NCBI GenBank assembly: GCA_035764935.1
Contig: DASTYK010000126.1
Coordinates: 1 to 63,108 of the forward strand
Direction: 5' to 3'
Source of the DNA: Longimicrobiales bacterium
GTDB lineage: Bacteria; Gemmatimonadota; Gemmatimonadetes; Longimicrobiales; RSA9
Length of the DNA: 63,108 nucleotides
Below are positions 12,536 to 23,795 of this stretch, in pieces (within the stretch, counting starts at the first letter, position 1; each line of letters starts with the position of its first letter). The notes under the pieces were generated by a model that had not been told where the DNA came from, did not search any database, and worked only from the letters and a program-made list of their open reading frames with translations. Made by a program: the position numbers and the translations under genes.

Positions 12536-12606
12536 ATCTCTCTTGACTGGCAGGGGGGCCGGCACGCATTCTCCACGTTCCTGCCCTACCTTCAACGTCT
12601 GCGGTG

Positions 12607-13341
12607 ATGACGCGCACCAGCACGAAAGCCGCCGCCGAAGCGGCGCTCCGCGAACTGCCTTCAGTCGTTGGCGCCTACGTTCGCGAGGACATCTTCGGCC
12701 ATCCACGGGAAGTTCACATCCTGGTAACAGCCGGCCCGACGCCCCGTGAGCTTGCGCGCGACGTGCGCGACCTGCTCGAGGAGCGGCTGGGCGTGCCGGT
12801 CGATCAGCGGGTGATCAGCATCGCGCAGCTCGCCTGCAGCCCCGTCGAGGCGCTGCCAACCCACCAGCTGCATCAGGCGGACGCCGTCGAAGCGGCGGCG
12901 TCCCAGGCGGGCGAGCCCCGGCTCCGGCTCGGGGGGCTGGACGTGGAAGCCGGCAACGGCCGTGTGTCCGTGGCGGCCCGGATGCAGCTCGGTCGCGACG
13001 AGCACGTCGGGTGGGGCTCGGAAGTCGAGACCGAACAGGGACGGTTGCGGGCGGGAGCGGCCGCCATTGCGCAGGCGGTCACCCTCGCACTCGGCGAAAG
13101 CGGCAGGCTGGAGCTCGAGGCAGCGTCGGTGGTGGAAGCCTTCGGCCGGCAGTACGGGCTGATCTGCACCAATGCCGCATCGCCACGACTGGGGCGGCAT
13201 CCCATCGCGATGTTCGGTGCGCACCCGCTCGGAAGCGATCCCGTCGAGGCGGGCGCGTATGCTGCTCTGAAATCAGCCAACCGGATCGTCGCATTGCTGC
13301 TGCGCAACGGCCGGGCGGCGCGGCGGCCGCGCAGTCGCTGA
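12607..13341 (+). CDS. Conserved protein of unknown function, paralogue of the gene at 43949
   Basis: A 244-residue soluble protein. Residues 15-75 (VVGAYVREDIFGHPREVHIL to QRVISIAQL) look like a small alpha/beta domain; residues 105-235 form a second one (VSVAARMQLG, LRAGAAAIAQAVTLALG, VVEAFGRQYGLICTN, DPVEAGAYAALKSANRIVALLL). The same two-domain order is seen in the protein at 43949-44545, so the two are paralogues. I know no function. Start codons GTG 12604 and ATG 12607 are adjacent, and no Shine-Dalgarno is evident. It ends three bases from the stop of the convergent kinase-like gene. Confidence 0.7.
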   Translation: MTRTSTKAAAEAALRELPSVVGAYVREDIFGHPREVHILVTAGPTPRELARDVRDLLEERLGVPVDQRVISIAQLACSPVEALPTHQLHQADAVEAAASQAGEPRLRLGGLDVEAGNGRVSVAARMQLGRDEHVGWGSEVETEQGRLRAGAAAIAQAVTLALGESGRLELEAASVVEAFGRQYGLICTNAASPRLGRHPIAMFGAHPLGSDPVEAGAYAALKSANRIVALLLRNGRAARRPRSR

Positions 13342-13344
13342 GTC

Positions 13345-14142
13345 TCAGGCGCTGGACGCGGCGTCGATCGGTCGCTCGGTCTGCGGGTCGGCCTGGTCGT
13401 CGAGCCGCGCAAGCGCAGACAGCTCGCCGATCACCCGCCGCACGACGTCCGCGTTCTCCACGACCATCCCGGCGAAGCGCGTGCGCTCCGCCACACCGAT
13501 CCACTCCTCCTGCAGCAACTGCCCCGCCCCGATGACGGCACCGACCCTGTTCTTCAGGTCGTGTGTGAGCCGACCCCGCACGCCGGCCAGTCGAGTCTCG
13601 CGCTCGGTGAGGCGGGTCTCCATCGCGTGCATGCGTGCCGAGGCGGTCGCCCGGGTGATCACGGCGCACGCGTGAAAAATCCGGCGCGTGGCTTCGAGCA
13701 TCGCGGTGGCGGCGATGTCGTCGCGATCGCGGGCAGTGAGGTCCACGAATTCGATGAGGACGTCGGCGAGGCAGCGCCACGCGTCGATCGCACTGATGGC
13801 ATCGACACCGCTCGCATGCAGCGAACGCGCGACGCGCAGCGCCGCAGCACCGAGCGGTGACTCACTCGTGATCGCCGTGGCGGGCGCGGCGATGAAGTCG
13901 GCTACACCGCATACTACGGGTGAAGCGTGCGGGACGAGCGCGTCGTACAGGTCGGCGAGCCCGCCGGTGGCCTGTTGCGCGTGATCGTGCGACGGCGAGG
14001 TGCCGTCCGTCGCGGCAAGGGTCAGCGGTGACGGCGTGTGTCGACGTACTGCATCGAGCCAGCGCCGCGCGAGGTCCTCGTGCGCCGCGCGGATGCGAGT
14101 GCTCAGCTCCCCGATGAACGGACTGCCTTCAGATTCGTGCAT
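13345..14142 (-). CDS. Histidine-kinase dimerisation (HisKA-like) protein lacking an ATPase domain
   Basis: A 265-residue protein. Residues 10-165 are helical and resemble the RsbRD/sensory N-terminal region found before kinase domains. Residues 170-245 form a coiled coil leading to an H-box, LTHDLKNRVGAVIGAGQLL, with the presumed phospho-accepting His at 194. The protein stops about 70 residues after the H-box, so no HATPase domain follows; the DNA beyond is the antisense of the convergent gene, with no sign of a frameshifted remainder. The operon contains a separate GHKL ATPase (14839-15750), which could act in trans. Sensor function and partner are inferred. Confidence 0.72.
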   Translation of the reverse strand: MHESEGSPFIGELSTRIRAAHEDLARRWLDAVRRHTPSPLTLAATDGTSPSHDHAQQATGGLADLYDALVPHASPVVCGVADFIAAPATAITSESPLGAAALRVARSLHASGVDAISAIDAWRCLADVLIEFVDLTARDRDDIAATAMLEATRRIFHACAVITRATASARMHAMETRLTERETRLAGVRGRLTHDLKNRVGAVIGAGQLLQEEWIGVAERTRFAGMVVENADVVRRVIGELSALARLDDQADPQTERPIDAASSA

Positions 14143-14224
14143 GGTCCTGCCTGCTCCACTCGTATGAACCGTCGTCCGGGTCGGACGGGTGTCGCGCGGA
14201 GGAAGGCAGGAACCGAGCCAGTCG

Positions 14225-14842
14225 TCAGGCGGAGGCCGGCAGCAGGGCGGGAAGTGCGCAGTAGTGGGCGCTTTCGGTGCTCGGAATCACCGTCCGACGG
14301 CGCGCCAGGGAAGCAAGGGCAGCCGATGTTTCCACCGGATCCGAGCGCAGCCGCTGCGCGATATCCTGGACGGATGCGACACCGGTCTCCTGCAGTGCGA
14401 GCCATGCGTAGCGCTCCAGTGGTGCAACCTCGCCCAGCAGCGTGAAGCCGACGTCGTCCACCTCCGCGACGAGCGCGAGGTTGTGACGCCCGAGCACCGC
14501 CTCGATCGGGTCGAGGTGGTGGTCGCTCACACCGCGGGCGACGAAGTACGCATCGGCCGGGCGATCGTCGGCCAGGTAGCGAAGCACGAGCTTGGCTACG
14601 GCCTCATCGGCGCAGGAGTAGTCGAGGATGACGACCTGTCGGAAGTCCAGGACGGAAAGGCAGCGGTCGCCGAGCTCGACGATCTGGCTCTCGATGCCGA
14701 GGCGGAGTGCGCGGCCGGTCGGGCGCGTCACCAGGTGCGAATACAGGCTGGCAACCGAGCGGCGCACGAGGGAGTGCAGGTCGATCGAGACCGGGACGAA
14801 CGACTGCTGCGGACCGTAGGTCATCCTGCTACCACTGCTCAT
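14225..14842 (-). CDS. STAS-like (DUF4325) plus winged-helix protein
   Basis: A 205-residue protein. Residues 20-100 resemble the STAS-like DUF4325 domain (GRALRLGIESQ and VVILDYSCADEAVAKLVLRYL, with Ser76 at the place where anti-anti-sigma factors are phosphorylated). Residues 140-190 look like a winged helix (YAWLALQETGVASVQDIAQR, SAALASLARRRTV). The ATG overlaps the stop of the GHKL ATPase gene in an ATGA junction, so the two are translationally coupled. The pairing with an ATPase suggests a partner-switching output protein; the DNA-binding role of the last domain is inferred. Confidence 0.7.
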   Translation of the reverse strand: MSSGSRMTYGPQQSFVPVSIDLHSLVRRSVASLYSHLVTRPTGRALRLGIESQIVELGDRCLSVLDFRQVVILDYSCADEAVAKLVLRYLADDRPADAYFVARGVSDHHLDPIEAVLGRHNLALVAEVDDVGFTLLGEVAPLERYAWLALQETGVASVQDIAQRLRSDPVETSAALASLARRRTVIPSTESAHYCALPALLPASA

Positions 14843-15750
14843 GCCTCGGTGTCGCGCGCAGGCAGAATGATGCCGATCTGCGCGCCGGGAAGATACGGCA
14901 GGCCGGTCTCGAGCGTGCGCCCGTTCTCGTCCCACGCGGGGATATCCGCGATGCGAGCCGTACCGCTGCGCACGGAAACACGACCGCCCCAGCGTGCGAC
15001 GAGCTTGCGGATCTGCTGCAGTCCCTGGCCGCGGCCCGGATCGTGGTGCCGCGTCTGGCCGTGCATGAACGCCGATTCCAGCGCCGCAGCATCCGTCCAG
15101 CCGCCTTCAGGATAACGCGTTGCGTGTGTGGACGCGAGGCTCTTGCGGAAGCCGATACCCAGGTCCATCACGGCAATCACCACCACGCGCCTGCCGCCGA
15201 GCTTTTTCGTCCAGGTGTAGGTCTGCGTGGCAACCCAGCCGGGCGCTTCCGCGTGCTCGATGATGTTCTGGCAGACCTCCGAGAGGATCACGCTGAACTG
15301 GAACGCCTCGCGCAAGGGGTAATGCAGCTGCTTCGTGAGGATCGCGATGCCACGCTCGTTGACCAGGTCGACGACGGCGTGCACGTCCTGGTGCGAGTTG
15401 ATGGGTGTCACTTCGAGCAGCACATCGGAGCCTGCTTCATGACCGCCGCGGCGCTGCGGCGCGCCTGAGAGCTCGAAGGTGCGTTCCGCATGCGGGAAGA
15501 AGTGCATGCGCGTGAGATAGCTGACGACCTCCGGACTGTCGGGCAGCTTCAGGAGCGGGCGCTCGCCATTTCGTTGCGCGGTGCTGCCGATGCAGAGCAG
15601 GCCGACCATGCCGTAGGGATCGACCCAGCGGACGTGCGTTGCGTCGAACAGGGTACGCTCGTCTGCATTCGCAGCGCTGCTGTCCGCTGCGCGTGCGACC
15701 TGTTCGAAGCTGCGCTCGTCGAGCGAAGCGGGGAGCGGTATGACGTTCAC
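14839..15750 (-). CDS. STAS-like domain fused to GHKL (HATPase) domain, signalling kinase
   Basis: A 303-residue protein. Residues 1-95 form a STAS-like domain (TLFDATHVRWVDPYGMVGLL). Residues 125-300 form a GHKL ATPase: N-box SEVCQNIIEHA (157-167), G1 box DLGIGF (196-201), G2 box GRGQGLQQI (239-247). There is no His dimerisation domain, so it resembles the anti-sigma kinases RsbW/SpoIIAB or a stand-alone CA domain. The GTG start overlaps the PfkB stop (GTGA) and its own stop overlaps the next start (ATGA). It may phosphorylate the STAS-like protein downstream or serve the HisKA-only protein at 13345. Confidence 0.75.
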   Translation of the reverse strand: MNVIPLPASLDERSFEQVARAADSSAANADERTLFDATHVRWVDPYGMVGLLCIGSTAQRNGERPLLKLPDSPEVVSYLTRMHFFPHAERTFELSGAPQRRGGHEAGSDVLLEVTPINSHQDVHAVVDLVNERGIAILTKQLHYPLREAFQFSVILSEVCQNIIEHAEAPGWVATQTYTWTKKLGGRRVVVIAVMDLGIGFRKSLASTHATRYPEGGWTDAAALESAFMHGQTRHHDPGRGQGLQQIRKLVARWGGRVSVRSGTARIADIPAWDENGRTLETGLPYLPGAQIGIILPARDTEA

Positions 15751-16742
15751 GTGCCGATCCTGCCGGAAAGGTGATGGTGCAAGCCGGATGCACCGCGATG
15801 TTCGACGTTGCGCGCGGCGGCCCGGTTCGCGGCACGCATGGCATCCTCGATCTCAGCGCCACGGAAGAGATGCAGCGCGCACGTCGCGCCCCAGACATCG
15901 CCGCAGCCGGTGGGATCGCCTTCGTCGGGTGCGCTGACGATGCCGAGACGGCCGGACCGGACGGCGCCGCCGGTGCGCACGATCGTCGGTCGGACGAGCC
16001 CGCGCTGGTACCAGCGCAGCGGGTCGGGCGTCCACGCGGGTGATGCGACGTATGCGGAGCCACGGTCACCGAGGGTCACGAGCAGCAGTCGCATCTCGTT
16101 GCCGACTGCATCTGCAGCGAAGCGCCACGGGTCCCCCTGCCACGCGTGAGCGAGCAGGTTCAGCTCGTCCTCGTTGACCTGCACGATGTCGAAGCAGCGC
16201 AGCCACTCGGGCCAGTGCTCGAGCGGTCGTGGCACACGCATGCCGTCCGGACCCACACCCAGGAAGAGGGAGTGCAGGTCCGTGTAGATGGGGCCGTGAA
16301 AGGAAAGCCGGAGCTGCTGCGCGGTCGCCAGGTCGAGCTCGAAGCCGGAGATCAGGTTGACGTAGAGCGCGTCGAGCGTGTCGACGATGGGCTCCAGCTC
16401 GGGCCACGTCCATGGCGGCACGCCACCGGTCAGCTTTTCGAAACGGCGCTGCCGGTCCTGGTAGCGCAGCTCGACGCGGTTGTTCGGCGCATCGACGATG
16501 CGCACGCCCGTGTCGAGGTCGAAGCCGGGCAGCGTGTGCAGAAAGCGCAGAGCAGGCTCGGCGAGGTCGGCTCCGACGCGAATGATGGGGACGATACGGA
16601 CATCGTCGCCGGCCGCGGCGGCCGCACCGCCGAGCGCATAGGAGATGCCGCCCCATTCCTCGATCGGCACACTCCGGCCGTCGCGGGCATAGATGCGGTC
16701 CCACACCATGCTGCCGAGCACCCCGATGCGCTTCATCGCCAT
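15747..16742 (-). CDS. PfkB/ribokinase-family kinase
   Basis: A 331-residue ribokinase-fold protein. The N-terminus IGVLGSMVWDRI and YALGGAAAAAGD form the substrate side; DPTGCGDVWGATCALHLF near residue 285 is the C-terminal PfkB signature with the catalytic Asp and anion hole. Substrate cannot be told from sequence: sugar, nucleoside or other alcohol. It heads a coupled chain (GTGA, ATGA) with two signalling genes, which is unusual for a sugar kinase. It has no Shine-Dalgarno; copy B of the dispersed element begins four bases upstream of the ATG. Confidence 0.82.
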   Translation of the reverse strand: MAMKRIGVLGSMVWDRIYARDGRSVPIEEWGGISYALGGAAAAAGDDVRIVPIIRVGADLAEPALRFLHTLPGFDLDTGVRIVDAPNNRVELRYQDRQRRFEKLTGGVPPWTWPELEPIVDTLDALYVNLISGFELDLATAQQLRLSFHGPIYTDLHSLFLGVGPDGMRVPRPLEHWPEWLRCFDIVQVNEDELNLLAHAWQGDPWRFAADAVGNEMRLLLVTLGDRGSAYVASPAWTPDPLRWYQRGLVRPTIVRTGGAVRSGRLGIVSAPDEGDPTGCGDVWGATCALHLFRGAEIEDAMRAANRAAARNVEHRGASGLHHHLSGRIGT

Positions 16743-16838: not shown

Positions 16839-17897
16839 TCAGACGCGGCCGTAGGTTTCCTTCTTGAACACGGCGGCGGCGCCAATGACGCCGGCTGTGC
16901 CCGGGAGGACGCCCGAGACGATTTCGCAGCACTCCTCGGCGCTGCGGAAGGCGCGACGTCGTACTTCCGCGCGCAGCGGAACGAAGAGGTGGTCACCTGC
17001 GCGGGTGACGCCGCCGGCGATCACGATCATGTCGGGGTTCAGGATGTTGATGAGGTTGGCGATGCCGGCGCCAAGCAGCTTGGCAGTCTCACGCATCACC
17101 TCGTTTGCATAGGGGTCGCCGAGAACGACCGCCTCGTAGACCGTGGCGGCCGTAATCTCTTCGAGCTTGCCGTCGACGAGTGTCGGGAGCAGCGACTCCG
17201 CGCCGGCCTCGATACCCTCGATGGCGCGCAGTGCGATGGCTGGGCCCGAGGCGTAGGCTTCGAGGCAGCCGTAGTTGCCGCACTTGCAGCGGCGGCCGGT
17301 CGAGTCGATGGTCATGTGGCCGATCTCGCCCGCCGCGTCGCTCGCGCCGTGGAAGATCTCGCCGTTCAGCACGATGCCGCCACCGATGCCGGTGCCGATG
17401 GTCAGTCCGACGAGGGAATCGACGTCGCGCCCCGCGCCGAGCCACCACTCCCCGTAGGTCGCGCAGTTCGCATCGTTGTCCAGGGTGGCGGGCAGGCCGA
17501 CGGCGTTGGAAATCAGGTCGCGCAGCGGGAAGTTGCGCCAGCCGAGGTTCGGCGTGTTGATGACGGTGCCGGTCGCGCGGTCGAGGGGACCCGGCGAGCC
17601 GATGCCGATACCGGCGAAGTCGTCGGGGCTGCCACCGTTCTGCGCAGCCACCTCGTTACGGCACTCGTTGATCAGGGAAACGATCCGGTCGACGACGTAC
17701 TTCGCGCCCCGATGTGCCTCCGTGGCCACGGAGCGCAGCCCGAGGACGTCGCCATTGCCGCCGTTCATCGGCAGTGCACCCACGGAGATGTTGGTGCCGC
17801 CGAGATCGACGCCGAGCACCCACTTCTTGTCGTCGCCGGCACTCACGGCGCCTCCGCCGGCGGCGGCAGCCTGCTTCCCCTCGTTCGGTGCCATCAT
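16839..17897 (-). CDS. ROK-family glucokinase
   Basis: A 352-residue sugar kinase of the ROK family, phosphorylating glucose (or a related hexose) with ATP in the cytoplasm. Phosphate motif VLGVDLGGTNISVG near residue 29; DNDANCATYGEWWLGAG carries the catalytic Asp; TIGTGIGGGIV binds ATP; CKCGNYGCLEAYAS is the zinc-binding ROK signature. A Gly/Ala-rich N-terminal extension of about 25 residues precedes the core. Two ATGs lie in tandem (17897 and 17894); GGGAG favours the second. The gene lies upstream of the PfkB signalling cluster on the same strand. ROK repressors have an N-terminal helix-turn-helix, absent here. Confidence 0.92.
   Translation of the reverse strand: MMAPNEGKQAAAAGGGAVSAGDDKKWVLGVDLGGTNISVGALPMNGGNGDVLGLRSVATEAHRGAKYVVDRIVSLINECRNEVAAQNGGSPDDFAGIGIGSPGPLDRATGTVINTPNLGWRNFPLRDLISNAVGLPATLDNDANCATYGEWWLGAGRDVDSLVGLTIGTGIGGGIVLNGEIFHGASDAAGEIGHMTIDSTGRRCKCGNYGCLEAYASGPAIALRAIEGIEAGAESLLPTLVDGKLEEITAATVYEAVVLGDPYANEVMRETAKLLGAGIANLINILNPDMIVIAGGVTRAGDHLFVPLRAEVRRRAFRSAEECCEIVSGVLPGTAGVIGAAAVFKKETYGRV

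Positions 17898-21995: not shown

Positions 21996-23795
<1,800 letters not shown>

Follow-up and report, generated by a model that had tools for sequence, protein, structure and literature searches.

GHKL serine kinases such as SpoIIAB and RsbW act on STAS proteins whose acceptor serine lies at the start of a helix. A related pair, CapK and CapS, was published in June 2026 as a DNA-damage switch that controls phage-defence operons (Chambers et al., EMBO J 2026; PMC13373217). CapK is a GHKL kinase activated by single-stranded DNA (ssDNA) and phosphorylates S54 of CapS, a repressor built of a STAS and a winged-helix (wHTH) domain, upon which the CapS dimer is lost and the operon derepressed (PMC13373217). 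The residues of CapK in contact with ssDNA are W68, K237 and K239, the asparagine of its N-box is N218, and deletion of its helix-turn-helix (HTH) had no visible effect; in CapS, the acceptor serine is absolutely conserved and the DNA contacts are N145, K151 and a GG wing (PMC13373217). The CapS site lies between capK and capS, and an immune operon adjoins the two genes in 348 of the 443 published cases (PMC13373217). In a three-gene variant, VapKSC, VapS inhibits a VapC-like PIN nuclease and the output is thus a protein (PMC13373217). The main text of the paper mentions neither Gemmatimonadota nor PfkB.

We analyzed a 63,108-nucleotide stretch of DNA from a Longimicrobiales bacterium (hereafter the window) that contains a similar pair, consisting of a STAS-GHKL protein (K) and a STAS-like/wHTH protein (S; P0003). 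An earlier note, made from the sequence alone, had joined these with a PfkB-type kinase and a HisKA-only protein (P0004) into one cluster, a possible split kinase or partner switch. The four minus-strand reading frames are present (Table 1), the GTGA and ATGA overlaps linking the PfkB, K and S genes are real and a ROK gene does precede the set. The actual unit, however, is lepA–ROK–pfkB–K–S, and the four genes do not make one system. We consider it likely that K and S form a serine-phosphorylation switch of the CapK/CapS kind that has entered the core genome of the class and is inherited vertically.

Table 1. Positions of genes and predicted key residues in the window
Feature	Position	Strand	Basis or remark
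lepA, upstream of the ROK gene	21996-23795	-	LepA by Pfam
ROK-family sugar kinase (glucokinase-like)	16839..17897	-	Pfam ROK 1.8e-72; first of the conserved ROK-pfkB-K-S run
PfkB/ribokinase-superfamily kinase	15747..16742	-	Pfam PfkB E 6.7e-9
K: STAS-GHKL kinase	14839..15750	-	CapK-like without N-terminal HTH; profiles and model
K N162, ATP-site asparagine, CapK N218 equivalent	15265..15267	-	invariant in all aligned orthologs; alignment with P0008
S: STAS-like (DUF4325-related) domain and C-terminal winged helix, CapS-like	14225..14842	-	hhalign, model, Foldseek, Pfam
S Ser76, predicted phospho-acceptor, CapS S54 equivalent	14615..14617	-	invariant in 67 sequences; helix start in model
Truncated histidine kinase P0004 (sensor region and HisKA, H194; HATPase_c lost)	13345..14142	-	alignment with the G254 kinase
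Convergent gene without Pfam family	12604-13341	+	conserved; 47% identical in G254

Distribution and neighborhood of the pair

We searched for S in 249 genomes, all from Gemmatimonadota and many of them metagenome-assembled, of which 243 belonged to the class of the window and six lay outside it. S was found in 237 genomes, nearly always once and always within the class (237 of 243), and in none of the six sampled genomes outside it. For the neighborhood, we fetched 60 loci of up to 20 kb each from across the families of the class. All 60 contained both K and S, PfkB was located upstream of K in 57 (one of these merely a fragment at a contig end) and a ROK match was located upstream of PfkB in 53; the overlap between PfkB and K was exactly 4 bases at 41 of the 60 loci. 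The same pattern was seen in the 80 best loci from a search of the genome contigs. K and S were adjacent in essentially every locus, in most cases overlapping by 4, 8 or 11 bases, and the conserved neighbors of the pair were lepA, ROK, pfkB, a gene for a PLP enzyme and ftsE/ftsX-like genes. The coupling proposed in the earlier note thus holds for ROK-PfkB-K-S, far above chance across the 60 loci, but breaks down for the HisKA-only gene, which was matched in one of the 60. The HisKA-only gene was found in few genomes, within the family in 3 of 12, the window's own included.

As a side observation, family f3 (L056-L059, L115, L117, L135 and L137) has an extra gene separating K from S, which encodes a cyclophilin-type peptidyl-prolyl isomerase where its product was read.

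Six genomes within the class were without S. In one of them (G232), K is cut off and a piece of PfkB is present, while three others (G096, G131 and G235) are missing K, S and PfkB altogether, a pattern compatible with a missing stretch of the assembly. The remaining two, from family f8, are without K and S and have a relative of PfkB. Conversely, the small genome G110 has lepA followed directly by K and S, with ROK and PfkB gone from their place and no PfkB ortholog found in the genome, and in G032 PfkB is on a different contig from K-S. Because K-S occurs without PfkB in G110 and the PfkB relative without K-S in f8, K and S are the pair, and PfkB and ROK are conserved neighbors that can be lost, PfkB being frequent but dispensable. 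The same genomes give no support to the metabolite input through PfkB or ROK at which the earlier note had hinted, and the idea of PfkB as an obligate target of K-S is weakened by G110, G032 and family f8. The PfkB protein itself retains its catalytic motif (D276-PTGCG-D282, in invariant columns of the alignment) and is single copy in the window's own genome.

Domains and conserved residues of K and S

In Pfam searches with the four reading frames, HATPase_c was matched at 2e-7, while the matches to STAS_2 (0.049) and HisKA (0.003) were weak. K starts with a STAS domain, without a preceding HTH, and continues with an intact GHKL domain carrying an N-box (E158..N162..H166) and the motifs DxGxG (G1) and GRGQG (G2). 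Among PDB structures, its model (pLDDT 91.9) was closest to the ATP domain of CheA (E 4.6e-4), and the front part of the model was closest to a STAS protein (E 7.9e-3). Using hhalign, K was aligned with P0008 (E 3.5e-10), an Enterobacter plasmid protein that we classified as CapK-type because its residues 68 and 218 are W and N, as published for CapK. The HTH columns of CapK are gaps in the K orthologs shown in the alignment, the position of W68 is occupied by S9/L10 and those of K237/K239 by T179/T181. Unlike these ssDNA contacts of CapK, residues W42, W180, R183 and R187 of K are conserved, and by their conservation they may mark another nucleic-acid site. The STAS domain of K has an invariant proline, P45, at its own acceptor position, where the helix begins.

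The invariant residues of S are T39-R40-x-T42-G43, D66 and D74-x-S76-C77-A78-x-E80. In the structure model (pLDDT 85.7), S76 is the first residue of helix 76-88, and it is aligned with S53 of the CapS-type protein P0012 of Vibrio. The hhalign comparison with P0012 gave an E-value of 3.9e-5 and that with P0007 of Nostoc 2.8e-7, and the profile scores of K and S against CapK/CapS-type proteins exceeded those of all shuffled controls. The relationship is nevertheless remote, and both the 14% identity to P0012 over 132 columns and the lack of a PDB fold match with E below 0.001 in Foldseek count against a CapS-like reading of S. The C-terminal part was matched by MarR/MntR/Zalpha-like folds over ~60 residues with a probability near 1 and E > 0.001, a search for similar folds among viral proteins yielded wHTH proteins for the most part and some S orthologs have Pfam matches to MarR_2, TrmB or IclR. 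This wHTH varies more than the rest of S, with a mean pairwise identity of 0.27 vs. 0.49 in the STAS region, and by sequence comparison, neither N145 and K151 of CapS nor its GG wing is present at the corresponding positions in P0003.

The STAS-like domain of S also resembles DUF4325 domains (PF14213), with which it has in common the motifs S/T-R-x-x-G-x-x-x-R and S-x-A-D-E (hhalign E 1.3e-7, indicating remote homology at the profile level only). P0003 had no match to the Pfam family above the gathering cut-off and 5 of the 46 orthologs had weak ones (best E 0.059), and DUF4325 was rejected as the family of S, leaving a remote relation. In Gemmatimonadota, DUF4325 differs further in being fused into a single chain and having no wHTH; such STAS-GHKL-DUF4325 proteins were seen at L092-L095, L097, L099 and L100.

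Proposed mechanism and alternative readings

As in CapK/CapS, a gene for a STAS-GHKL kinase stands directly before one for a STAS-wHTH protein (family f3 excepted), the N-box asparagine and the acceptor serine are conserved and both proteins align by profile. Since the pair is homologous to CapK/CapS, a partner switch with S as the output is the best reading of the two offered in the earlier note, and its remark that no described system had this set has been overtaken by CapKS. We call the pair CapKS-like rather than CapK/CapS proper because it lacks the HTH and the three ssDNA contacts of CapK, the residues with which CapS touches DNA, and an immune operon next to it: the genes around K-S at these loci are housekeeping genes, and the matches of K and S in PADLOC were limited to partial domains. 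Rather than a defence-associated pair, K-S is a near-universal part of the core genome of the class. Moreover, there is usually no space between the genes for an operator, as their overlap in most genomes leaves no room for a site of the kind that CapS has between capK and capS. In the phosphorylation step, the pair probably works like CapKS.

In such a switch, a signal would cause K to phosphorylate S on S76, phosphorylation would alter the S dimer and the binding of S, and S would act through its winged helix on DNA, repressing its own operon or a different one. We regard the phosphorylation of S76 by K as quite probable. DNA seems to have an even or slightly better chance of being the output of S. 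The poor conservation of its wHTH is not what one would expect of a fixed DNA-binding regulator, though, and aligning the LepA–ROK, ROK–PfkB and PfkB–K junctions, which were small sets, revealed no shared palindrome. By analogy to CapK, ssDNA could be the signal of K, though this is doubtful with the key aromatic residue, W68, not kept. These three estimates are judgements and were not computed.

The output could instead resemble that of VapKSC, with unphosphorylated S holding a protein target, PfkB being a candidate, that K releases by phosphorylation, and the winged helix serving for protein contact. The inhibition of VapC by VapS is a published precedent (PMC13373217), and the locus shares with VapKSC a STAS-GHKL kinase that has no HTH and a STAS substrate whose target may be encoded alongside it. 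PfkB lies directly before K, with the 4-base overlap in most genomes, and the drift of the wHTH and its lack of the CapS contacts fit a role other than DNA binding. The pair has no VapC, however, and no PIN gene was among the conserved neighbors identified; S has a full wHTH in place of the short C-terminal region of VapS; and the persistence of K-S without ROK or PfkB in G110, the separate contig of PfkB in G032 and the PfkB-like genes without K-S in f8 argue against this target. We consider such an output rather unlikely.

A classical anti-sigma switch, in which K would be an anti-sigma factor of the RsbW/SpoIIAB type, S its antagonist and the sigma factor encoded elsewhere, is very improbable. 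It would account for the combination of a GHKL and a STAS protein with an N-box and an invariant acceptor serine at a helix start, as in SpoIIAB/SpoIIAA and RsbW/RsbV. In contrast to those systems, K has a STAS domain of its own and S a wHTH, which is the architecture of CapK/CapS, and no sigma factor gene was found among the conserved neighbors looked at.

The fourth gene of the earlier grouping, encoding P0004, starts 82 bp downstream of S. In the sister genus g6 (G254), S is followed by a 451-residue RsbRD_N–HisKA–HATPase_c protein, beyond which lies the convergent gene also present in the window. The alignment of P0004 with this kinase covers residues 25-255 of the latter and reaches the end of HisKA. 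No HATPase remnant was found at the place of P0004 in the window, and the HATPase_c domain is retained in a related kinase in G147 as well. By these alignments, P0004 is a lineage-specific truncated histidine kinase, separate from the conserved system. A real deletion is the simplest explanation for the truncation, although it may be an assembly error in the draft genome; in either case, the split-kinase arrangement is not conserved. The reading of K and P0004 as a split sensor kinase, in which K would supply the ATP for phosphorylating H194 and which the closeness of the GHKL and HisKA domains in the window had suggested, therefore fails and retains practically no credibility: the kinase is complete at the same place in g6, the gene for P0004 is patchily distributed and K is found throughout the class in genomes nearly all without the HisKA partner.

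Mobile relatives and the place of K-S in the class

We observed related genes on mobile elements. A plasmid of Nostoc linckia (L183 4902-9936) carries an HTH-less CapK-like and a CapS-like gene side by side. Next to them lie a gene that remotely matches MBL-type defence genes and a fusion gene of the Prok-E2/ThiF/JAB type, a set like the Bub-type operons described with CapKS (PMC13373217). A K/S-type gene pair on a Vibrio plasmid is near HsdR. In Gordonia phage Phishy, gp32 (L193 1878-2729) is a STAS-GHKL protein with 29% identity to K, located two genes from a tyrosine integrase and with no S-like gene recognized beside it. Searches with K using tblastn recovered only remote plasmid and phage relatives, and there was no match for S in the plasmid collection, for the Nostoc S in the phage collection or for S and K in scans of viral contigs.

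It is conceivable, if fairly unlikely, that K-S is an ancient housekeeping switch and the immune CapKS systems its mobile offshoots. The signal would then be something other than ssDNA, the winged helix would be drifting and the pair would control a protein target or a carbohydrate-linked core regulon. CapKS is known for controlling defence operons upon DNA damage, and here a related pair has become fixed among the core genes of a whole class. Its position beside a metabolic kinase and away from defence genes suggests a general signaling module that is also used by immunity, and the core pair allows a test of which function is ancestral, ssDNA sensing or DNA binding.
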